In this document: one piece after another, positions 5,662 through 53,145 of the stretch
Layout of the letters: every line of letters begins with the position of its first letter
Position numbering within the stretch: position 1 is the first letter of the stretch
Assembly: GCF_026210795.1 (NCBI RefSeq)
Contig: NC_089443.1
Span: 930,001 to 994,000, forward strand
Length of the DNA: 64,000 nucleotides
Direction: 5' to 3'
Source of the DNA: Rhizophagus irregularis
Taxonomy: Eukaryota; Glomeromycota; Glomeromycetes; Glomerales; Glomeraceae
Notes under the pieces: model-generated
Databases searched by the model: none
What the model was told of the DNA's origin: nothing
The model's input: only the letters and a program-made list of their open reading frames with translations
Program-made: the position numbers and the translations under genes

Positions 5662-8600
5662 ATGGAACAACGTATTAAGAAAGCCAATATAAATTATTAT
5701 GATCGTAACGAATTTGTTAACATAGAAGAGATAGGTGAATTATACAAAGCGAATTGGAAAAAGGATGGAAAACTTGTAACATTAAAGTCATTTAAATTAG
5801 ATGACGATAATGTCAGGGAAATTGCACATGAGGTATTTAGATTTTTTTTTCTAAAAATTCGTGTAGAATAATTATTCCATTAATCCATTTCAACAAAAAA
5901 AAAAAGTACGCATTGTAAAAGTCTGGCGCGTTTAATAATTTTACAAGTCTCACATGATCACTAAAAATTTTATTTTTTTTTACAGATAAAACTACGTGCG
6001 AATAATGATATCAATGACGTAATGATGGAATTATATGGAATAACCAAGAATAGTTCAGGTAAATAATTTTTTTCACGGGACGTCTTACTTAAACCACCAA
6101 AGTATCATATATGTATTCTAAAATAATATTATATTATATTATGTTTTAGATAATTATTTATTGGTAGTAGAATATGCGGAAGGAGGCACACTTCGTAATT
6201 ATTTGGAAAAGAATTTTCTTTCGTTAAAATGGAGAGACAAATATGAATTAGTCATTCAATTATCAGGAGCAATAGAATTTTTGCACGAGGGGGGAATCGT
6301 ACATAAAGATTTACATTCAGGCAGTATACTTGTACATCAAAATTCCATTAAGTTGGCAGATTCTGGATTAAATAAACGTATTAAAGATTCTAGTCAAGCT
6401 TGGTTAGATACAATTCCTTATACTGATCCACGAAGATTTGATATTGAAGAAATGTCTTCGGGTGCATTTGAGTTAAACGAGAAAAGCGACGTTTACAGCG
6501 TTGGAGTATTATTATGGGAATTATCTAGTGGGAAAAAACCTTTTTCTGATAAAGAATATAATTTATTTTTGGCAAGAGAAATTACGCAAGGATTAAGAGA
6601 AGCCATGGTAGATGGTACGCCCAATGATTATTATACTCTTTATGAAAGTAAGTAATAATTTTTCTTACATTAATTATATTATGTTAATTGTACATAATCT
6701 AAAATTAACAAATGGTAATCTTTTTAGGATGCTGGAATGGTGATCCAGATAAGAGACCGACTATTCGGAAAGTTATTACAGCTTTAAAATTGATGATATC
6801 ATCGCTAGATCCGGAATATTCGGAGTCATCATTATCTAAACAAAAGCAAATAATTCAACAATTTAATTTGAATCATGGATTATTCTTGAATGGGTACAAC
6901 ATAGAACCAAGTAAACAAGCTGTATTTACTGAAGATGGTGAATTAAATATGAGTTTATATGAGGGTCAACCTTTAGTGTATACTTCCATAAACGATCGTA
7001 ACTCACGTATAAATTTATTAGATTTTAATTCAGATGATAATGACGTTCAACTTGACGAATCTCTACAACCATCGGATATATGTATTAATTTTCCTGTTGC
7101 CGAAATTACTTATACTGCCGATTTATCAAAGACGTTTTCAAATTTTATAAATGACGATAGAGGAAAGTTGTACGAAATGTATGGTCATCATTTTCCAAGA
7201 AAGATTTTCATTGGTGGAAAATTATTTATCGATGGCCTTAAATCGTTTACTTCAACACAAATCGACATTTTTATCACTTACTTAACTTGGATATATAATA
7301 CAGCAAAATATGAAAAAGAAATTCCTTTTAATAATTTATCCGCTTTGAATTTCTTTCCAAAAATATTGACGCCGGATGGAATAAATTTGGATAATCATAA
7401 AAAATTAACCAAATGGATGAATGATTTATATCAAGATGATACGGTTGAAATAATTTCTTATAACAATCTCGTTCCAATTTATCAATTAAAATCCGATACA
7501 ATATCATTAGTAGACGAGATACAACCTGGAGTTGCTAATTTTAAAGAGAAATTGACTTTAGAAAATTGGGTTAAAAATACAAAATATATAAGATGGGTTA
7601 AAGAATTTCAACTTCATCGAGGTTTAATAATTGATAAAAAGCTTAAATTAAAAATTAGCAAGGAAAATGCTATTGATTTAATTAATATTCCTAATGTAAA
7701 TTCAAGTAATAAATTTTGTTTAAGTATAGTTAAACCGACAACTACCTTAGATGATATGTTAATAGATAACAACGTTTTTTCAGATAATGAAGATATAAGC
7801 TCCTTTCCGTTTATTAAAGTATCAGATGATCTAAGTCATGAGGATTATGCACATTTTCTGGTAAAATGTGAGCAATATAAAGTTTTGTTAAATAGGGATA
7901 ACATTAAACCTTCAGAGAAATTTAAACTAATTATAGAAAGAGCGCTTGAAAATATGAAACCACATATATTTTTACAAGAAATTTTTGAAAACTATGGACA
8001 TTTTATTCCATTAAGCATTATATTAGGAAAATCTCTTAAGAATACCATAGAAAATTCATCTTACATTTCAAAAAGGATTGATTTAGAATCACCAGTATTC
8101 GAATCTTTAAAATCACATTTAGCAGATTTCAGTATTCCGTGTCTTTTAACGCAAAAAGGAGATATTATTGAAAAAAATGGTTTATCTGAATGGATTCAAA
8201 ATATAAATAATGACTTAGAAATTATTGAATTTAATAATATAATTCCTTTATATGATATTCTTGAAGTAGAGCAAAAGAAGGAAATAGATATAATTTTAAA
8301 TAAGCGAAATAATTTTAGAATTATAATGACCGGAAGTATTGATTTAAAGTATTCGGATATTACCAAGCAATTGATTGTAGGTATAAGACCACCAGTAGAA
8401 AAGAAAAATTACGAGATTTTTGGATCAATCGTTTCAAAAAATAATTCAAAGTTAAAAGATATATTTGTTACATTTGGATCATATGAAATTGATCAATTTA
8501 CTGCTACGATAAGAACTTCAAAGAAAATAAATATAAAGGATTATTATATCTTATGGATGATGATTGGAAATCCTTCAGAATTATCAGTATTTGGTCCAAA

Positions 8601-11600
8601 TAATCGAGAAATACAAGTTGAATATGTCAAGCAATCCATTAAATTACAACGCAACAATTCTTATTCTATTACAACACACCAGTTATCGCAAGGATATGAT
8701 ATCTCTATTAAATGTTTTAAACCTATAGAAATTAAATTTGCTGGGTGGTCAAAAAATTGTGTTCATTTAAATATTTCAAACCCTAAATCTATTAAATCTG
8801 ATATAGAAAATGTTGAAATAGCTATTTGTGTTTTAAATTCAGGTCATGAAAAATCATGGATTGATATTAACGCAAAGAAGTATTCAATTGGATGTATTTT
8901 AACTGAAAATAATTATTTGGATATTGTATCAAACGCACAAAAATATTTAAAAACGACTTATCCAACAAAAAATGAAAGAGAAAAGGAAACAATGTTAGTT
9001 ATTAGTAAGAAAAATTTAGAAAATCATTTAGATTTATCAGAGTTTGTTAATTTAGAGAAATTAAACTGTTCTGGAAATGATTTAACTAGTTTAGATATTA
9101 GTAAAAATAAACATTTAACTGAGATTGATTGTTCTCAAAACAAAATAATTAGTTTGGATTTAAGTAATTGTTTATATATTAAATCTATCACAGCTAATTG
9201 TAATCAACTTATTGATATAAGACTACCTATTGTAAATAGTGAAAAATTAGAATATCTAAATTTGCTCGATAATTCATTTTCTCAAAATTTAAATTATTTC
9301 AGTCGATTTGTTAATTTAAAGGAATTACTTATTGGAAGCATTGATGGAGATAGAATACAGCAAGGCAAATTTAACAAGTTTTATGGTAGTATGAAACCTT
9401 TAAAAAGTATGATTAAATTAAAGAGTTTAAGTATTAATAATACTGATATAGATTCTGGTTTGGAGTTCTTACCTGATTGTATTACAAATTTTCGATGCTT
9501 AGCTGATAAGAGATCAGAAGCTAAAGTGAAAAAAATATATGATCAACTTGGGATTTATACATTGAATTCTGTTGATGCCTTTCAAGGTAGATATAATTTG
9601 AAAGCATGGAAAGAAAATTGGAAAACAGTTAAAGAAAAAGAAGCTCTCCTAAATCAAATTAAACAGATTGAAGAGCTAACGTCAAGTGATAAACTTAATG
9701 AACTTGAAAAAGAAGAAAGTAACTTGATTGCAAAAGAAGTGGAGTTAGTAGAAAAAAATAATCATTTGGAAGTAGAAATAAAAAATTTGGAGCAAGTAAC
9801 AAATAATTTGAAACAATTGGTCAATGAATTAAATGCAAAATTAGAACAAAAAGAAGTTGCTTACCAACAAACTAAGGAGCAATTAGAAGAAAAAGAGGAG
9901 AAACTAAAATCCTTTACTGGAGAGAAGCTAGAAAATTTTACTACCGAAAAATTAATGGAAAAAGAAGAATTGAATAAAGAAATAGGGAACTTAAAAAAAA
10001 TGTTATTAGATAAAGAGAAAGATGTAGAACAATCGGAAAAACAACTGGAAGAAATCAATACGGAGCTAGAAACGAAAGAAAAAGAATCTGACAACTTGAA
10101 AAATGAATTAGATAACATTAAATCATCATTAACTGAAATTCAAAATAAAAAAGCGGAATTAAGCAAACTCAAAAAGAAATTAGAACACGAAAAAAAATTT
10201 TCTAAAACTGGTACATCTGGACTTAGAAAGCAAATGGATGACTTGAAAAAAGAATTGCAGTCGTTAAAAAATCAAGAAATAAAAGCTAAGGAATTAAAAA
10301 ATGAACTTGAAGAGATCAGAAGAAACAAGAATAGACTTCAAAATGAGAAAGCTCAACAACAGGACATTGTAGAAGACCTTCAGAAAGAACAGACAAATTT
10401 ACAAGAAAATCTTAAAAACCTTAATAACAAATTAAAAGAGAAAGAAGGTCTTATTAATAAGCTTGAGCAACAAAAAGAGCAACAAATTAAAGATTTACAA
10501 AACAAGTTGGAGGATTGTTTGGATAAATTAAAAAATAAAGAGGAACTTATTGAGGAATTACAAAATAAATTTGATGAAGAAATCAGAAAACATCAGGAGA
10601 ATCTGTCTTTCCTTAATAGCAAATTAAAAAATAAGGAGAAACTTATTGAGGAATTACAAAATAAATTGGATGAGGAAACCAAAAAATATCATATTTCTCA
10701 AGAGGATCTCGCTTCCCTTAATAACAAACTAAAAAATAAGGAGAAATTTATTGAAGAATTACAAAGTAAATTGGATGAGGAAACCAAAAAATATCAAATT
10801 TCTCAAGAGAATCTTGCTTCCCTTAATAACGAATTGAAAAATAAAGAGGAAATAATTGAAGAATTACAAAATAATTTGAATGAAGAAACCAGAAAATATC
10901 AAATTTCCCAAGAGAATCTTGCTTCTCTTAATGACGAATTGAAAAATAAAGGGGAAATTATTGAAGAATTACAAAATAATTTGAATGAAGAAATTAGAAA
11001 ATATCAAATTTCCCAAGAGAATCTTTCTTCCCTTAATAACGAATTGAAAAATAAAGAGGAAATTATTGAAGAATTACAAAATAAATTGGACGAAGAAACC
11101 AAAAAATATCAGGAGAACCTCGCTTCCCTTAATAGTAAATTAAAAAATAAAGAAAAACTTATTGAGGAATTACAAAATAATTTGAATGAAGAAACCAAAA
11201 AATATCAAATTTCCCAAGAGAACCTTATTTCCCTTAACAACGAACTAGAAAATAGAGAGGAGCTTATTGAGAAATTACAAAGTAATTTGGATGAAGAAAC
11301 CAGGAAATATCAAGTTTCTCAGGAGAATATTACTTCCCTCAATAATCAATTAAAAAATAAGGAAGGTCTCATTAATGAACTTCAACAACAAGGTGAAGTG
11401 ATAAAAAATCGAATAAGAGAGACCAATATTTTGCTTCCTCAAATACAGACTAAAAATACCAAACTGAAAGAATTAATTGATACTGTTAAAAAAAAAGATC
11501 TTGGTAAAAAAGGCAAGCTTTTAATAGATAATATGTTGGAAAAACACAAAAATTTTATATTAGGTGATAATGATTCTGCTTCTAAAGAATTAGAAAAAAT

Positions 11601-11727
11601 TAATCAGAAATTAATCGAAGATTATGAATTAACTAATAAAGAAATTAATGAAATTTTAAATACGCATGAAGAAGTAATTAGATTTGATATACAACTCACG
11701 TCCTTGCTAAATCCGGAAAGTGAGTAA
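5662..11727 (+). CDS. Large pseudokinase, LRR and coiled-coil protein
   Basis: Exons 5662-5832, 5986-6058, 6150-6647 and 6728-11727 give about 1,913 aa. The N-terminal 280 residues are a TKL kinase fold that looks inactive: the glycine loop is deleted (IEEIGELYKANW), HRD is HKD and DFG is DSG, though the LKS lysine and DVYSVGVLLWE remain. Residues about 350-1000 are unfamiliar. They hold two similar motifs, YGHHFPRKIFIGGK near 399 and YGHFIPLSIILGK near 670, faintly like the MACPF YGTH signature; that link is tentative. Leucine-rich repeats (LNCSGNDLTSLDIS and relatives) start near residue 1020. From about 1205 to 1830 comes a coiled coil ending in eight 31-35-aa tandem repeats. The intron present after HRDL in the other kinases here is absent. 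A kinase-less paralogue begins at 61227. A scaffold role is inferred. Confidence 0.8.
10531..11372 (+). repeat. In-frame 105-bp coding tandem repeats (coiled coil)
   Basis: Eight consecutive units of mostly 35 codons share the pattern KNKEELIEELQNKLDEETKK followed by YQISQENLASLNNEL. Units 1 and 6 lack four residues around YQIS. The units are acidic and lysine-rich with heptad spacing, as expected for a long coiled-coil rod. High nucleotide identity between units suggests recent expansion by unequal exchange. Confidence 0.9.
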
Positions 11728-31443: not shown

Positions 31444-34400
31444 ATGGCTCACAGCAATGATAAAGGTATAAATCATATATAGCAAAAACATTTATTAATA
31501 CAATTAGAATTCTAAAATTTTTAAACAAATTTGCAATATAAAAAAAACTAGTTTCCGATTGTTTTGAAGAAAGTGGCATTGGAGAATTTGAGGAAAGTGG
31601 CACTGAAAAATTTAAATTTAGTATTGAGGAAGAATTTGAAGAAAGTATTATTCAGGAATTTAAAGGATGTAGTATCAAGGAGTCTAAAGGTATATCAAAC
31701 AAGCTGAAATATTAAATTTTTATTTGTAAATAATTAACTGCTATCTATAATTATGCCTTATGTAATATGCAAATATAATTTAAACTGACTATATTATGTA
31801 AAATTATATAGCTCGTAAGTTAATAAGTTATTTTATCATGGAATTTCCTATTAATTTTGTTATATTATATGTACTAAATATTTCATTTAATGATTAATAA
31901 TACTATAGTTAGTAAGTTATCAGTTATTTAAATCTTTAGTTTTTTACTTTACTTATTTTACATAATATTCAGATAACTAAATTCTTTGTTTAAATAACTT
32001 CTAAATAATTGATTATATTGCAGATGGTAAGTTACAATATATATTATATTTATTTGTTTAATATATAGTATAATTCAACTAATTATATTCTATAAATAAC
32101 TAGATTGTAAGTGATTTAATTTGCAATAAATACTTCTGTTTATATCTATATCCAACTAATTAATATTAATAACACTACAGGGTGTAAGTAATATCTATGC
32201 TACTATTATTTGTATAATTTAAGCTAATAAATCTTTATTTAAAAAATTATTTTTTTTAGTTGGTAAGTTATAAATTATTTATTTAATTATATTATTACTT
32301 ATTTATATAATATTTACATATAATTTAAACTAAATTCTTTATTTAAAAATCATTAATAACATAGAGCGTAAGTTATTTATTTAATTCTATTATTACTTAT
32401 TTTATATAATAATTTAAACTAACTAAATTTTTTATTAAAAAATCATTTAATAATATAGTGCGTAAGTCATTTATTTAATTCTATTATTAGTTATTTATAT
32501 AATATTTAAATATAATTTAAATGAACTAAATTCTTTATTTAAAAACTTATTTTGTAATTTTTTTAGCTGGTATGTTATAAATTATTTAATTATATTATTA
32601 CTTATTTATATAATATTTAAATATAATTTAAACTAACTAAATTCTTTATTTAAAAATTATTTAATAATATAGAGCGTAAGTTATTTATTTAATTCTATTA
32701 TTACTTATTTATATAATAATTTAAACTAACTAAATTCTTTACTAATAAATTATTTAATAATATAGTGCGTAAGTTATATTTATTTAATTCTATTATTACT
32801 TATTTATATAATATTTGCATAATTTAAACTAACTAAATTCTTTATTTAAAAAATTATTTAATAATATAGTGCGTAAGTTATTTATTTAATTCTATAATTA
32901 CTTATTTACATAATATTTGCATAATTTAAACTAACTAAATTCTTTATTTAAAAAATTATTTAATAATATTATAAGAGTGTAAGTTATTTATTTAATTCTA
33001 TTATTACTTATTTATATAATAATTTAAAACTAACTAAATTTAAAAAATTATTTAATAATATAGGGAGTAAGTTGTTTATTTAATTCTATTATTACTTACT
33101 TATATAATATTTACATATAATTTAAACTAACTAAATTCTTTATTTAAAAAATTATTTATAATTTCTCTAGTTGGTAAGTTATAAGTTATTTATTTAATTC
33201 TATTATTAGTTTATTACTTATTTGTATAATATTTACATATAATTTAAACTAACTAAATTCTATATTTTAAAAATTATTTAATAATATAGGGAGTAAGTTA
33301 TTTATTTAATTCTATTATTACTTATTTATATAATATATACATATAATTTAAACTAACTAAATTCTTTATTTTAAAAATTATTTAATAATATAGGGAGTAA
33401 GTTATTTATTTAATTCTATTTTTACTAATGAATATGTATAATTTAAACTAAATAAATTCTTTATTTTAAAAATTATTTAATAATATAGCTTGCAAGTTAT
33501 TTATTTAATTACTTACTTATATAATATTTAAATATAATTTAAACTAACTAAACTAACTAAATTTAAAAAATAATTTTGTAATTTTTTAGTTAGTAAGTTA
33601 TAAGTTATTTATTTAATTAATTACTTATTTATATAATATTTAAATATAATTTAAACTAACTAAATTCAAATTATTTTGTAATTTCTTTAGTTGGTAAGTT
33701 ATAAATTATTTATTTAATTCTATTATTACCTATTTATATAATATTTAAATATAACTAAATTCTTTATTTAAAAAATTATTTAATAATATAGGGAGTAAGT
33801 TGTTTATTTAATTCTATTACTATTACTTATTTATATAATAATCACATATAATTTAAACTAACTAATTTCTTTATCAATAAATTATTTAATAATTTAGGGA
33901 GTAAGTTATTTATTTAATTCTATTATTACTTGTTTATACAATATTTACATATAATTTAAACTAACTAAATTCTTTTATTTAATAAATTATTTGATAATAT
34001 AGAGCGTAAGTTATTTATTTTATTCTATTACTTATTTATATAATATTTACATATAATATAAACTAACTAATTTCTTTATTTAAAAAATACTTAATGATAT
34101 AGAACGTAATTTATTTATTTAATTCTATTATTACTTATTTTATATAACATTCACATCTGACTAAATTTTTTATTTATAAAATTATTTAATAATATAGGGA
34201 GTAAGTTATTTATTTAATTCTATTATTACTTAATTGTATTTGCATATTATTTAAACTAACTAAATTCTTTATTTAAAAATTATTTAATAATAGAGAGTAA
34301 GTTATTCACTTAATTCTATTATTATTTATTTATATAATATTTACATATAATTTAAACTACTAAATTTTTTATTTAAAAAATTATTTAAATAATGTAGAGA

Positions 34401-37400
34401 GTAAGTTATTTATTTAATTCTATTATTACTTATTTATATAAATATTTACATATAATTAAACTAACTAAATTCTTTATTTAAAAAATTATTTTATAATTTC
34501 TCTAGTTGGTAAGTTATAAGTTATTTGTTTAATTTTATTATTACTTATTTATATAATATTTACATATAATTTAAACTAACTAAATTCAAATTATTTTGTA
34601 ATTTCTTTAGTTGGTAAGTTATAAATTATTTATTTAATTCTATTATTACCTATTTATATAATAATCACATATAATTTAAACTAACCAATTTCTTTATTTA
34701 AAAATTATTTAATAATATAGGGAGTAAGTTATTTATTTAATTCTAATATTATTTATTTATATAATATTTACATATAATTTAAACTAACTAAATTCTTTAT
34801 TTAAAAAATTATTTAAATAATATAGAGAGTAAGTTATTTATTTATACTATTATTACTTATTTATATAATATTTTTAATATAATTTAAACTAACTTAAATT
34901 CACATTATTTTGTAATTTCTTTAGTTGGTAAGTTGTAAATTATTTATTTAATTCTATTATTATTTATTTATATAATAATCACATATAATTTAAACTAACT
35001 AATTTCTTTATTTAAAAAATTGTTTAATAATATAGGGCGTAAGTTATTTATTTAATTCTATTATTAGTTATTTATATTATATTTAATTACATATAATTTA
35101 AACTAGTAACTAAATTCTTTATCTAAAAAATAATTTAATAATATAGAGAGTAAGTTATTCATTTAATTCTATTATTATTTATTTATACAATATTTACATA
35201 TAATTTAAACTAACTAATTTCTTTATTTAAAAAATTATTTAAATAATATAGGGAGTAAGTTATTCATCTAATTCTATTATTAATTATTTATATAATATTT
35301 AACCTAACTAATTCTTTATTTAAAAAATTATTTAAATAATATAGGGAGTAAGTTATTTATTTATTTAATTCTATTACTACTTATTTATATAATATTTACT
35401 ATATAATTTATATAATTTAAAATAACTAAATTCTTTATTTAAAAAATTATTTTATAATTTCTCTAGTTGGTAAGTTATAAGTTATTTATTTAATTCTATT
35501 ATTACTTATTTGTATAATATTTACATATAATTTAAACTAACTAAATTCCTTATTTAAAAAATTATTTTGCAATTTCTTTAGTTGGTAAGTCATAAGTTAT
35601 TTATTTTATAATATTTACATATAATTCAAACTAACTAAACTCTTTATTTAAAAATTATTTAAATAATATAGCTTGTAAGTTATTTATTTAATTCTATTAT
35701 CACTTTATTTATATAATATTTACATATAATTTAAACTAACTAAATTCTTTATAATTTCTCTAGTTGGTAAGTTATAAGTTATTTATTTAAGAAAAAATTT
35801 ATTTCTTCACCGGTGATTTACGTCATACCGATCATTTGCCGATCATTTCAAAAAATGTAATTTTTGACGAAAAAAATTTATAGCTTTGTATACCCTTCAA
35901 AATCATAATTTATGAGTAATTTTGCCTGTTCAACAAATTTACTTAATACCTTAAGAAAGATTATAAATACCATTTTTGATATTTTTAACAATTTATGACT
36001 TGTGGTGAGGAATATCGAATCTCACCCAGGGTGAGATTACTTATTTATATAATATTTACATATAATTCAAACTAACTAAATTTTTTATTTAAAAAATATT
36101 TAATAATATAGAACGTAAGTTATTTATTTAATTCTATTATTACTTATTTATATAATATTCACATCTCTTTATTTATAAAATTATTTAATAATATAGCTTG
36201 TAAGTCATTTGTTGTTTTTGTTGTTATATATTTTATACAACATTTTACTTGTAACTGAATTCTTTCATTTAATAATTCCCATTTTTTAGTTGGTAAGTTG
36301 TAAATTATAGATTATTATTATATATATTTATACAAAAGCTAAACCATCTGTTATATTGAATTCCCTATTTAAATTTTAGAGTAAGTGTTAATTCTAATTT
36401 TAAATTTTATATGAATTTTAATATAAACTTTAATATAATTCTAATTATTTAATATTTATAGATTTGGAAAAAGTGGAAATTCAATTATAGATGATTTTAT
36501 TTTGAAAAGACACTTAAAATGGATTCCTTATAATAAATTTAAAAATGTTGAATATCTCAATGAAGGAGGATTTGGTATTATATTTAAAGCTAATCGGTTA
36601 AATGATGCAGATGAAGAAGTAATTCTTAAATGTCACAAGAATTTAAACGAAAATTTATATGAATTTTTAAATGAAGTATGATAGTATGTTATTAAATTTT
36701 TTAATTTAAATCATAATTTAACTATATTAATATATTATTATTATTTTTTTCATAGTGGGAATATCATGAAAAGTGTTTGGATTCAGATAATATTATTAAT
36801 TTTTATGGATTTACAAAAGATCCAAATACTTCAAAATATATGGTAGTAATGGATTATGCAAACAAGGGTAATTTAAGAGGAAATTTAACAGGAATAATCA
36901 AAAATAATTGGAATCAAAAATTATATATGTTGTATGAAATTATTTCTGGACTTAATGAGATACATGGAAATAAACTTATTCATTGTGATTTTCATGATGG
37001 CAATATTTTAAATCACAATTATGAGAATAACGATAAAATTTATATTAGTGATTTAGGATTATGTCAACCTGTAAAATCATTCTTGCAAAAGTATGATATT
37101 TATGGTGTTATACCATTTATGGCACCTGAAGTTTTAAGAGGCAAATCTTATACTCCAGCTAGTGATATATATAGTTTTTCTATGATTATGTGGGAATTTA
37201 CATCTGGAGTGCCGCCATTTAATGATAAAGCACATGATCTTCATCTTAGTTTAAGTATTTGTAAAGGTGAACGTCCTGGAATTATTGAAAATACTCCACA
37301 ATGTTATGTAAATTTGATGAAAAAATGTTGGAATGAAGATCCATTAAAAAGGCCATCTGCATCAGAAGTGAGATATGTTATTAAAAATTGGATTTTCCGT

Positions 37401-37646
37401 CCTTATAATGAAGAATTAAAAAGTAACATTATGGAATTTATAAATGCACCGATTAGGAAGCACAACAATCTTGCTACTGAATCTCATCCACAAGCATGTT
37501 ATACAAGTCGCTTACTTGATTTTACTAGTAAAAAATTGAATGAAATTCTTGTAAGTGAAGATTCACAAGCTTATAATGCAAGTTATTCTTCTACTGGTAT
37601 AACTGAAGATTTAAATGATTGCATAATTAAAGTTATGAATAATTAG
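31444..37646 (+). CDS. TKL kinase with a 44-microexon linker (48 predicted exons)
   Basis: A kinase of the Rhizophagus TKL type, about 464 aa if spliced as predicted. Exons 31444-31465 (MAHSNDK) and 31552-31689 encode an acidic head with EESGIGEFEESG-like repeats, leaving in phase 1. Then come 43 exons of exactly 3 nt (31812 to 36292) and one of 1 nt (A, 36380). Finally 36462-36675 and 36756-37646 encode the kinase: NEGGFG near residue 130, VILKCHK lysine, HCDFHDGNIL near 244 (HRD replaced by HCD), SDLGL near 267, MAPEVL, DIYSFSMIMWE and the closing RP. The kinase exon must be entered in phase 2, which 43 triplets plus one base supply; skipping the array shifts the frame into a stop. The predicted linker of 44 codons (residues 54-97) has no stop and is rich in Arg/Lys. 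Splicing is inferred from motifs. Confidence 0.75.
31690..36461 (+). repeat. Tandem array of introns separated by 3-nt exons
   Basis: About 44 degenerate units of roughly 107 bp. Each carries GTAAGT near its start, the motif AAACTAACTAA (CTAAC branch-type) about 40-50 nt before its end, and TAG or similar at its end. Between each AG and the next GTAAGT lie exactly three bases. Triplets begin at 31812, 31909, 32024, 32104, 32181, 32260, 32365, 32459, 32567, 32673, 32766, 32870, 32976, 33064, 33171, 33290, 33394, 33489, 33590, 33691, 33792, 33898, 34003, 34103, 34198, 34294, 34398, 34506, 34611, 34721, 34826, 34925, 35036, 35147, 35252, 35345, 35467, 35582, 35672, 35764, 36112, 36197 and 36290. 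Counts: TTG 10, GGA 9, AGA 4, AGC, TGC and CTT 3 each, TTA and AAC 2 each, seven singletons. A single A at 36380 follows. Confidence 0.85.
35791..36034. mobile_element. Small insertion inside one intron of the array
   Basis: The repeat unit after the triplet at 35764 is interrupted after TTATTTATTTAA and resumes at ACTTATTTATATAATATT. About 244 bp are inserted. The insert carries TTCACCGGTGATTTACG near its left end and CTCACCCAGGGTGAGATT near its right end (partly inverted). It also has GATCATTTGCCGATCATTT, a motif shared with the Mutator-like elements at 22756 and 48981. Without it the spacing to the next triplet would be about 104 nt, the array norm. Boundaries are approximate. Confidence 0.6.
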
Positions 37647-45593: not shown

Positions 45594-47902
45594 ATGCAAA
45601 ACACAATAAATACAAATGAATGGATTAATTATATTGAAGAATCTATTTCTAGTGAATATTTTAAACTTTATGAACAAAAACATTTTAGTAATATTCAAAA
45701 AGTTGGAACTGGAAGATTAGGAGAAGTTTACCGTGCAAGTTGGAAAAATTCACAATATTTTGCGTTGAAATCTTTTTTTAATCTTGATGACGTTACTGCA
45801 AAAGAAATCGTTCATGAGGTATAAATTATGAAATAATTATAATATAACGTCTTTTATATTCATAATATACAGTATATATGTACTCAATGAGTTTATATTT
45901 ATTATATTGATATTCTAGTTTAAACTTCAAAATGATATACAATTTCATAATAATATTATTAAATTTTATGGAATTATAAAATTTGATTCAGGTATAATAA
46001 ATTTAAATATTCTATATGTTTAATATGTGATTTTATAAAAATATACTTTAATAAAAAAAAATGATTATTTCTTTATTTTTATAATTAGAAAATCAAAATT
46101 CTCAATCAAATAATTATTTATTAGTGATGGAGTATGCTGATTCTGGTCCTCTTAAAAATTATTTAAAGGAAAATTTCAATAGTCTTACATGGAATGTTAA
46201 ATATAATTTTGCGTATCAATTAGCCTGTGCCGTGTCATGTTTACATAATGAAGGAATAGTGCACTGTGATTTGGTAATTTACTTTATTAATTATAAGAGT
46301 AGTATTTTTGTGAATTCTTTGTCATATTTTTAACATCATAACGAATTTACATTTTAAAGCACTCCGGTAATGTATTGGTCCATCAAAACATTATCAAGTT
46401 ATCTGACTTTGGGTTATCAAAGAGAATTGAATCATCATCTAACACGCAATCAAAACTTTTTGGAATAATTCCTTACGTTGATCCAAAAAGATTTAGTGAA
46501 CAAATATTTTCGTTAAATGAAAAAAGTGATATCTATAGTGTTGGTGTATTATTCTGGGAGATATCTAGTGGTCAACCTCCCTTTTATTCTAAAGGCAAAC
46601 AATATGATATTGATTTGGCTTTAGAAATTTCACAGGGCCTTAGAGAAGAACTTATTCCCGATACACCTGAAGATTATGTTAATATTTATACCGGTATGTA
46701 ATTTATTTTTTGAAAAAAAAAAAAAATTTCAACAAACTCTCATTATTTTACAATATGCTATTATATGTTTTTTTTTAGAATGTTGGAATGGCGAACCAGA
46801 TAAACGTCCAACCATAAATCAAATAGTAGAAGTATTAAAGGCAATTATGACAAAGACAAATATAATAACAGAAAATTATCAAACAGAATTAATTCTTCAT
46901 TCAACATCAACAGAAGGATTAAATTTTATTCCAACTAATATTGATACTTTATTAAATATTGATAATTCATTACATGGAGAAATGATACAAAATTTTGATA
47001 AAATGGATATAAGAGAAATAGTACCTAGATCATTGAATGAAAAAAATTTAAATAAAACAGTTAATGATACAGTAAATTATATTTTCAAAATAATTAATAA
47101 GGGAAAAGAATCAACGCGTGTCAAGTATAATAAGGATATTCTTGATTATTTTGATAATAATATAAATTTACAAGAAATTTACTATTTACTATTAACCAAT
47201 CAAAATGATTTAAATTCCAAATTCTTACTTGGATATTTTAATTATTTAGGGATTGAAACAAGTGAAAATAATAAGGAAGCATTTGATTTATTTATTAATG
47301 CATCAGAGCAAGGTCATATATTAGCACAATTTTACGTTGGATTATGTTATCAATCTGGTTGTGGAACTGTAAAAGATGAAAATTTGGCTTTTAAATATTA
47401 CGAAAAAATAGCCAATATGGGATATGCATCAGGATTGTTAAAAATTGGTTATTTCTATGATCATGGTATTGGAACTATAATTGATAAGCAAAAAGCAATT
47501 GAATTATATCAACAAGCAGCGAATTTAGGAAATAGTGTGGCTCAATATAATCTTGCCCTTACGTATTATAATGGAGATGGTGTTGATAAAGATTATGAAA
47601 AAGCTTTTGAATTATGTTACAAGGCAGCAAATTCAGAAAATAGTGATGCTCAATACAATCTTGCTCTTATGTATTATAATGGAGAAGGTACTGAGAAAGA
47701 TTATGAAAAAGCTTTTGAATTATATTACAAAGTAGCAAATTTAGGAGATAGTGATGCTCAATACAATCTTGGTATTATGTATGAATATGGAAAAGGAATT
47801 GACAAGGATATAAATCAAGCAATTTATTGGTATGAAGAATCTGCTAAACAAGGAGATCAAGATGCTCAGAATAAATTAAAAAAATTTAAGAATATACAGT
47901 AA
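45594..47902 (+). CDS. TKL kinase with six Sel1 repeats (copy 1)
   Basis: Five exons: 45594-45818, 45919-45991, 46089-46273, 46360-46693 and 46779-47902, giving 646 aa. Intron phases 0, 1, 0, 1 match the kinase at 1563-3078. The kinase domain spans residues about 30-290: GTGRLGEVY loop, FALKSF lysine, DFGLSKR, DIYSVGVLFWE, CWNGEPDKRP. The catalytic loop reads HCDLHSGNVL, with Cys replacing the usual Arg of HRD; the Asp and Asn remain. A linker follows, then six Sel1-like repeats from about residue 420 (NSDAQYNLALMYYNGEGTEK and relatives, 36 aa each), a helical protein-binding solenoid. Kinase-Sel1 fusions are typical of this fungal lineage. A near-identical inverted copy lies at 50983-53145. 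Confidence 0.88.
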
Positions 47903-50982: not shown

Positions 50983-53145
50983 TTAATGTTTTGATTTATT
51001 TTGAGCTTGTTGATCTCCTTGTTTAGCAGATTGCTCATACCAATAAATTGCTTGATTTATATCCTTGTCAATTCCTTTTCCATATTCATACATAAGACCA
51101 AGATTATATTGAGCATCACTATCTCCTAAATTTGCTAACTTGTAAAATAATTCAAAAGCTTTGACATAATCTACCTCAGTCCCTTTTCCATTATAATACA
51201 TAAGAGCAAGATGGAATTGAGCCATACTATTTTCTAAATTTGCTGCTTCTTGATAAAATTTAACTGCTCTTTGCTCATCAACTGTGGTTCCAATACCATG
51301 CTCATAGAAATAACCCATTTTTGATAATCCTGATGCATATCCCATATATGCTATTTGTTTGTAATATTTAAGAGATAATTTTTCATCTTTTACAGTTCCA
51401 TAACCAGATTGATAACATAATCCAACAAAATATCGTGCTAATATATGGCCTTGCTCTGATGCATTAAAAAATAAATCAAATGCTTCCTTATTATTTTCAC
51501 TTGTTTCAATCCCTGCATAATTAAAATATCCAAGTAAGAATATAGAATTTAAATCATTTTGATTAGTTACTAATAAATAGTAAATTTCTTGTGAATTTAC
51601 ATTATTATCAAAATAATCAAGAATATTCTTACTATTTTTAATACGTGGTGCTAATTTTGCTTCATTAATCATTTTGAAAATATAATTTACTGTATCATTA
51701 ACTATTTTATTTAAATTTTTTTCATTCAATGATCTAGGTACTATTTCTCTTATGTTCATTTTATCAAAATTTTGTATAATTTGAGACATTTCTCCATATA
51801 GTAATGAATTATCAATATTTGATAAAGTATCAATAATATTAGTTGGATTAAAATTTAGTCCTTCTGTTGATGTTGAATGAAGACTTAATTCTGGTTGATA
51901 ATTTTCTGTTAATAGAATGTTTGTTTTTGTCATAATTGCCTTTAATCCTTCTACTACTTGATTTATGGTTGGGCGTTTATCTGGTTCACCATTCCAACAT
52001 GCTAAAAAAAAATCATATAATAGAATAATGAGAGTTTGCTGAAAAATTTTTTTTTCAAAAAATAAATATATTACATACCGGTATAAATATCAACATAATC
52101 TTCAGGTGTATCGGGAATGGGTTCTTCTCTAAGGCCCTGTGAAATTTCTAAAGCCAAATCAATATCATATTGTTCGCCTTTAGAATAAAAGGGAGGTTGA
52201 CCACTAGATATCTCCCAGAATAATACACCAACACTATAGATATCACTTTTTTTATTTAACGAAAATATTTGTCCGCTAAATCTTTTTGGATCAACGTAAG
52301 GAATCATTCCAAAAAGTTTTGATTGTGCGTTAGATGAAGATTCAATTCTCTTTGACCACCCAAAGTCAGATAATTTGATAATATTTTGATGGACCAATAC
52401 ATTACCGGAGTGCTGTAAAATATAAATACGTTATGATGTTAAAAATATGACAAAATATTCACATTATAGTATAAATTAATAAAGTAAATTACCAAATCAC
52501 GATGCACTATTCCTTCATTATGTAAATATGACCCGGCACAGGCTAATTGGCTTGCAAAGTTATATTTATCATTCCATGTAAGACTATTGAAGTTTTCCTT
52601 TAAATAATTTTTAAGAGGACCAGAATCAGCATACTCCATCACTAGCAAATAATTATTTGATTGAGAATTTTGGTTTTCTAATTATAAATAATAAAAATCA
52701 AGAAATAATCATTTTTTATTAAAATATATTTTTATAAAATCACATATAAATATAAATTTATTATACCTGGATCAAAATTTGCAATTCCATAAAATTTAAT
52801 AATGTTATTATGAAATTGTATATTACGTTGAAGCTTGAGCTAGAATTATCAATATTATTATAAATATAAACTTTAAGTAAGCACATATACATATATTATA
52901 AATATATAGTTAATTTATACCTCATGAACGATTTCTTTTGCAGTAACGTCATCAAGATTAAAAAAAGATTTCAACGCAAAATATTGTGAATTTTTCCAAC
53001 TTGCACGATAAACTTTTCCTAATCCTCCAGTCCCAACTTTTTGAATATTACTAAAATGTTTTTGTTCATAAAGTCTATAATATTCTCCAGAAATAGATTT
53101 CTCAATCCAATTAATCCATTCATTTGTATTTTTTGTGTTTTGCAT
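50983..53145 (-). CDS. TKL kinase with five Sel1 repeats (copy 2)
   Basis: Five exons on the complement: 52921-53145, 52767-52839, 52493-52677, 52079-52412 and 50983-52001, giving 611 aa. The first four exons have exactly the lengths of copy 1 (225, 73, 185, 334 nt). I chose the ATG at 53145 (MQNTKNTNEW) because it matches copy 1. Features: GTGGLGKVY loop, FALKSF lysine, HRDLHSGNVL (canonical HRD, unlike copy 1), DFGWSKR, DIYSVGVLFWE. The C-terminal solenoid has five Sel1 repeats; the missing 36-residue unit corresponds to the fourth repeat of copy 1 and explains the length difference. Promoter homology to copy 1 extends about 230 bp upstream once the insertion at 45067-45467 is removed. The two genes converge. 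Confidence 0.88.

Follow-up and report, generated by a model that had tools for sequence, protein, structure and literature searches.

Recursive-splicing ratchet points keep zero exonic bases, and introner elements are near-identical introns found at dispersed, unrelated genes. Here we analysed a predicted kinase gene of Rhizophagus irregularis, a root-associated soil fungus, in a 64,000-nt stretch of DNA (the window; contig NC_089443.1, positions 930,001 to 994,000, corresponding to C15:930001-994000 in the 146.7-Mb, 32-contig genome). About 43 residues between its acidic N-terminal exon and its kinase domain are, with high probability, encoded by 43 consecutive 3-nt exons and one 1-nt exon, a judgement that rests on tests across a family of such genes. 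As in recursive splicing, an acceptor stands directly before a strong donor and this is repeated in one transcript region. Unlike ratchet points, the array keeps three bases per step, which look coding, and 0 nt was found in just one of 1288 units. Many near-identical introns occur in one genome, as with introners and intron gain by tandem duplication, but here the repeat is an intron plus one codon, arranged in arrays within one gene family.

In schistosome micro-exon genes, parts of PMC4350168 describe many very small symmetrical exons in series, with most of the coding region in them and alternative splicing. The present gene is similar in having a run of very small exons with lengths that are multiples of three (43 x 3 nt). 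It differs in that the units are of 3 nt (plus one of 1 nt), are tandem repeats with similar introns, belong to fungal kinases and make up 130 of the 1395 coding bases of the window gene (stop included), thus not most of its coding region. Splicing of exons as small as 3 nt or 1 nt is described for Drosophila homothorax and Arabidopsis APC11 in parts of PMC7392893 and PMC4674806; unlike those isolated micro-exons, the ones predicted here are consecutive by the tens and are followed by a 1-nt exon. The hallmarks of spliceosomal micro-exons, i.e. an acceptor, a donor and a branch-type motif in the intron, were found in the array units. Consecutive arrays of one-codon exons were not described by title or abstract in the literature searched, and the claim of novelty is limited to that search.

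The predicted exons and introns of the window gene are the following.

31444-31465, + strand: exon 1, ATG GCT CAC AGC AAT GAT AAA G (MAHSNDK), ending in phase 1
31552-31689, + strand: exon 2, acidic, with 8-aa repeats of the EFEESG type, phase 1 to phase 1
31690-36461, + strand: introns between exon 2 and kinase exon A, 45 in number, the final one at 36381-36461
31812-36292, + strand: array of 43 predicted micro-exons of 3 nt each, phase-1 peptide ALNDWFELPELLQWIGRTFIGRKQRKKIVGKIGQRRIVAFEPF
Array units 1-11, + strand: 31812-31814, 31909-11, 32024-26, 32104-06, 32181-83, 32260-62, 32365-67, 32459-61, 32567-69, 32673-75, 32766-68
Array units 12-22, + strand: 32870-72, 32976-78, 33064-66, 33171-73, 33290-92, 33394-96, 33489-91, 33590-92, 33691-93, 33792-94, 33898-900
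Array units 23-33, + strand: 34003-05, 34103-05, 34198-200, 34294-96, 34398-400, 34506-08, 34611-13, 34721-23, 34826-28, 34925-27, 35036-38
Array units 34-43, + strand: 35147-49, 35252-54, 35345-47, 35467-69, 35582-84, 35672-74, 35764-66, 36112-14, 36197-99, 36290-92
35790-36040, + strand: non-array stretch of about 250 bp in the intron between units 40 and 41, its limits approximate and judged by eye
36380, + strand: predicted 44th micro-exon, one A (AG, A, GTAAGT, i.e. acceptor-A-donor)
36462-36675, + strand: kinase exon A, entered in phase 2, FGKSGNSIIDDFIL...GGFGIIFKAN...
36756-37646, + strand: kinase exon B, ending with the stop codon

A first-pass annotation of this DNA had reported 43 units of AG, three bases and a donor, nearly all donors being GTAAGT, and 15 kinds of triplet. 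All 43 units were present at the given place, 40 of the donors were GTAAGT (the others being GTATGT at 32570, GCAAGT at 33492 and GTAATT at 34106), and 15 triplet kinds were counted. The units form a tandem array with a period of about 104. The reported spacing of 77-122 bp held from donor to donor for all units except one of 348 bp (35767-36115), which is longer because the foreign stretch sits in that intron. GTAAGT occurred 41 times in 31690-36461 vs 15 times in the remaining + strand of the 64 kb, so that the array is far beyond chance. The annotation was right in essence but overlooked the one-base exon with its role, the genome-wide family and the variability of the triplets; the pattern extends beyond this locus.

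The complete model gave a 464-aa protein with an intact frame and a kinase domain (PF07714, E 6.5e-39 for the whole model), and the domain score of 134.2 bits (PF07714/PF00069) was above the gathering score of 23.1. The predicted product runs ...KESK, then 130 nt of the array starting GCTCTTAATGATTGG..., and then FGKSGN. Exons 1 and 2 both end in phase 1 and the kinase exon needs entry in phase 2; the single A at 36380 would complete a codon G-A-A (Glu) across three exons and move phase 1 to phase 2. With the 43 triplets and the single base (130 nt) the frame was open from exon 2 into the kinase exon, whereas exon 2 joined straight to the kinase exon met a stop 9 codons on, and a stop also arose when the 43 triplets were joined to it without the single base.

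The array was found to belong to a gene family. A 26-base piece of one unit had 1305 matches in the genome at no more than two mismatches, with 0 for the reversed control. Among the matches listed (100, from C1 to C9) there were about 33 clusters, of which 22 were sampled. Arrays were present in 19 of the first 20 sampled clusters and absent in one (L010). The further clusters L030 and L031 also hold arrays, and another stretch extends L014. The conserved 3' end of the array (last TTG unit and 1-nt exon) had 100 matches in the genome, and again 0 for the reversed control. The family tests below were done on 22 arrays including that of the window, with 863 units by a relaxed parser, and most of the 100 3'-end loci lie outside this sample; among the 863, the first unit of L011, which precedes its neighbour by 801 bp, is probably spurious.

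These arrays were 16 to 84 codons long, with R, D, N, W, F and Y abundant in the encoded segment. They tend to start with CTC-TTA/TCA/TCG/TTG-ATG-ATT-GGT or part thereof, 18 of the 22 encode D-W close to their start, and the final unit encoded F in 19 of the 21 arrays with a visible tail, the typical end being CTT-TTG and then the 1-nt exon. A 1-nt exon after the last triplet was found in 21 of the 22 arrays (19 A, 1 G and 1 C; L022 had no visible tail), with a kinase exon behind it in all 21. Exon 1 ended in phase 1 in all 16 genes where the script found one (the window's own not among them), exon 2 had a length divisible by 3 in each of the 12 genes where it was found, the window included, and all micro-exon lengths were multiples of three in 20 of 22 arrays. 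Ten of 14 automatic models were open from ATG into the kinase; those not open were L012 (one stop, in a unit with a weak donor), L023 (one stop), L019 and L024. In L024 exons of 2, 0 and 2 nt were seen and in L019 two of 4 nt, and some of these odd lengths look like the loss or gain of a single base within a run, which may reflect assembly errors or decay. L027, in which exon 1 was not found, had one stop in the array. L017 had an open array but a kinase exon broken by an insertion, and at least this member of the family seems to be dead. First exons encoding MGQCISK or MDQCI(D/G)K were observed in L016, L025, L026 and L028. MGxC resembles a lipidation signal, and some of these kinases may be membrane-anchored.

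The spacing within the units was determined over the whole genome by searching for AATATAG before and GTAAGTTATTTA after a middle of variable length. The form AATATAG-N3-GTAAGTTATTTA was found in 1264 of the 1288 flank-matched units (98%). Middles of 4-9 nt occurred in 14 units (nine of 6, one of 9, two of 4 and two of 7 nt), 10 of them keeping the frame, and middles of 0-2 nt in 10 units, with 0 nt in one. Chance was rejected as an explanation, reversed-pattern controls giving 0 in each spacing search. A GTAAGT donor was present in 754 of the 863 units (a count that the search rule favours) and after the single-base exon in 18 of 21, but in 0 of 16 exon-1 donors and 0 of 12 exon-2 donors; the kinase exon donor was GTATGA in 20 of 20. 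Of the 804 introns with a length of 60-140 nt, 607 contained the branch-type motif CTRAY. The GC content was 38.5% in the triplets, 9.4% in the intron bodies and 26.7% in the kinase exons of the window gene. Triplets starting with AG were also seen in the 22 arrays (e.g. TAG, AGA and GTAAGT in succession), giving two possible acceptors and an exon of 3 nt or 1 nt; this ambiguity is like that of NAGNAG sites and could shift the frame.

An AG closely followed by GTAAGT resembles zero-nucleotide ratchet points, and the sites might accordingly serve the recursive splicing of one long intron with the three bases as a by-product. Ratchet points keep no sequence, whereas spacing, frame and triplet composition here look selected, and we regard this explanation as extremely improbable.

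Next we considered the codons formed at the junctions. In phase 1 a junction codon takes its first base from the end of one triplet and its other two from the start of the triplet that follows. Consecutive junctions formed stops in 3 of 826 cases vs 29.2 expected from the pooled composition (Fisher P 3.8e-12). In reversed order 33 of 826 were stops, at lag 2 there were 17 of 804, at lags 3-6 26-32 of 717-781, and at lags -2 to -6 there were 19-25 of 717-804. Against the within-array expectation, TAA was observed 2 times vs 6.5, TAG 1 vs 15.1 and TGA 0 vs 5.0, whereas TGG for Trp (T and then GG) was not depleted (66 vs 48.9). A or G ahead of the same dinucleotides was enriched, and C was low but non-significant (15 vs 22.1, P 0.075). 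Per locus, 15 of the 17 arrays with an expectation above 0.3 fell below it (P 0.002). A strict parser gave 4 stops in 771; two of these vanished once a weaker-donor unit was recognised between the triplets (L011 and L014), and an added unit in L012 made a new stop. Genome-wide counts of unit pairs were 133 for an AR unit followed by an NNT unit, 145 for GG followed by T and 192 for T followed by GG, with 0 in the controls. A phase 2 reading was rejected, with 6 stops in the window array and 128 in 787 units vs 107 expected.

A depletion of stops that is strong between neighbours, weak at lag 2 and absent at lags 3-6 or in reverse order is hard to explain unless the triplets are spliced together in succession and read in phase 1, and these sequence statistics make the joining and translation of consecutive triplets very likely. 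The proposal of the first-pass annotation that the triplets are exons, with one codon per unit, is supported by this test together with the 3-nt spacing and the phases in the family, all of them properties of the DNA itself.

Some observations qualify this reading. T at lag +2 was also below expectation (17 vs 27.4, P 0.013), and so was G in reverse order (24 vs 35.3, P 0.017). Both departures are far weaker, yet they show that the order of units has some structure of its own. The Fisher P is too small because of block duplications and paralogy. In the window, moreover, the single base alone, with no triplets, also leaves the frame open into the kinase exon, so that frame bookkeeping by itself is no proof of the triplets; the case for them comes from the family. 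The last point would suit a non-coding minisatellite lying within one long intron, with exon 2 joined to the kinase exon directly or via the single base. The units are plainly tandem, and the OCT59 models seen make no use of the triplets. Direct joining, however, gives the stop after 9 codons, and such a minisatellite would leave the avoidance of stops in one phase, the almost invariable 3-nt spacing and the GC content of the triplets unexplained; it is therefore very improbable in our view.

The GenBank protein model P0001 (R. irregularis DAOM 181602=DAOM 197198, 404 aa) matched the window model at 100% over the aligning 44% of residues 1-120. Between exon 2 and the kinase it has 18 residues which are an ordered subset of the 43 window triplets in phase 1, and it then continues inside the kinase exon. 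This subset was not reproduced by the other 21 arrays, by 5000 shuffled orders or by 5000 shuffled peptides. Runs encoded by the 22 arrays (at least 9 residues in phase 0 or at least 8 in phase 1) were found in none of 120 proteins within their first 150 residues, residues 1-90 of L015 matched no annotated protein, and one viral-contig scan gave no match. According to parts of the R. irregularis genome paper (PMC10234402), long RNA reads were mapped with a maximum intron of 3000 in at least one step, and with this limit reads would not span the arrays if the micro-exons were unplaced.

Other GenBank models, including P0024 of R. diaphanus, look like triplets in phase 0 followed by AGTAA. Taken as a general reading, the triplets would be phase-0 exons and the last micro-exon would be AGTAA (5 nt). 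The models P0004, P0012, P0013 and P0024 indeed finish ...LSKFGKSGN or similar, and just two stops were found in this phase in 787 units. The depletion of stops, however, belongs to phase 1, exon 1 ends in phase 1 in each of the 16 genes, and L028 has two TGA triplets yet is open in phase 1. Moreover, most tails have GTAAGT as donor behind the single base, and in L017 and L021 AGTAA (or GGTAA) is not followed by a GT. Phase 0 is thus hardly credible.

Returning to phase-1 one-codon exons, the introns between the micro-exons would be short (about 70-120 nt), AT-rich and strongly marked, and the spliceosome would take out each of them by intron definition, near-perfect GTAAGT donors compensating for the missing exon context. 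All units would normally be included. Alternatively, and compatible with translation of the triplets, the one-codon exons could be skippable, giving very many isoforms per gene. Each unit is frame-neutral, the low stop count at lag +2 is a possible trace of exon skipping, and 18 of the 43 triplets appear in P0001, though that is a gene model. At lag +2, however, the effect is slight beside that at lag +1 and could be caused by block structure, and the strong splice signals in most units suit constitutive use. Variable inclusion therefore appears unlikely, if still worth considering.

The array may expand and contract via unequal exchange of units consisting of an intron and a codon, and, one unit being one codon, any expansion or loss would stay in frame and spliceable. 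The triplets were compared between units by flank identity over 96 nt (50 bases upstream of the acceptor AG plus 46 starting at the donor). There were 40 identical-flank classes with at least 2 members, and the triplet was uniform in 35 and varied in 5. The 5 varied classes held 13 extra triplet kinds, and 20 pairs of kinds differed at two or three positions. Applied to 3-nt windows elsewhere in the flanks, this count gave a mean of 0.84 extra kinds, a maximum of 4 and at most one such pair. In L030, for example, units 6, 9, 12, 16 and 21 have identical 96-nt flanks and the triplets GGA, CTC, GGT, TTC and GGT. Differences such as those in L030 are not easily produced by point mutation alone, but could arise from homogenisation of the flanks combined with selection for different codons, or from a process targeting the triplet. 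Counted by pairs, a different triplet was found in 188 of 321 identical-flank pairs, a number that mainly reflects a single 22-unit class. The variability suggests codon-by-codon diversification, with a signal that rests on five classes.

Arrays also grow by blocks of codons. In L014, units 38-71 contain a head-to-tail duplication of some 16-17 units, with the same triplets bar one extra GGG unit. Introns moving singly were tried as an explanation and were not supported by the co-variation of the two flanks of an exon (0.38, vs 0.115 for the two ends of one intron, in a crude, gap-free comparison within arrays). Unrelated stretches also interrupt L012, L018 and L021, with gaps of 496, 564 and 507 bp and units on either side, and since these arrays and that of the window continue past the insertions, the introns seem to tolerate them. 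At about 4832 in L010 (G000:C1:7918332) a lone unit fragment of roughly 100 bp lies in unrelated sequence with no array, as if captured during repair.

The encoded segment is probably a fast-evolving recognition or regulatory part ahead of the kinase, its function being a guess. Tentatively, and with somewhat more doubt than confidence, we propose that the array is a device for codon-by-codon diversification. Copies of an intron plus codon would be exchanged and homogenised within and between genes while the codon changes far faster than its surroundings, driven either by strong diversifying selection or by a process that targets the 3-nt exon. The outcome would be on the order of 100 kinases whose recognition segments differ and can be freely extended, and skipping might add isoforms to these.

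Elsewhere in the window, two Sel1-repeat reading frames in opposite orientation were observed at 46625-47902 and 50983-52089 (PF08238, E 1.1e-56 and 3e-43), both starting with a kinase-like C-terminal stretch. A 1672-aa open frame at 6709-11727 had a weak LRR_4 match and a 105-bp repeat at 10593-11360.

If true, the present reading would establish a gene architecture in which tens of consecutive one-codon exons are spliced and translated. It would bear on the minimum exon size under intron definition, allow micro-exon splicing to be tested in natural genes, on the order of 100 in number, and offer a route for a protein segment to evolve through tandem duplication of introns. It would also account for the confused annotation of this kinase family. 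If the triplets diversify while the introns homogenise, the arrays would be a means of generating protein diversity in a fungus in which genetic work is difficult.

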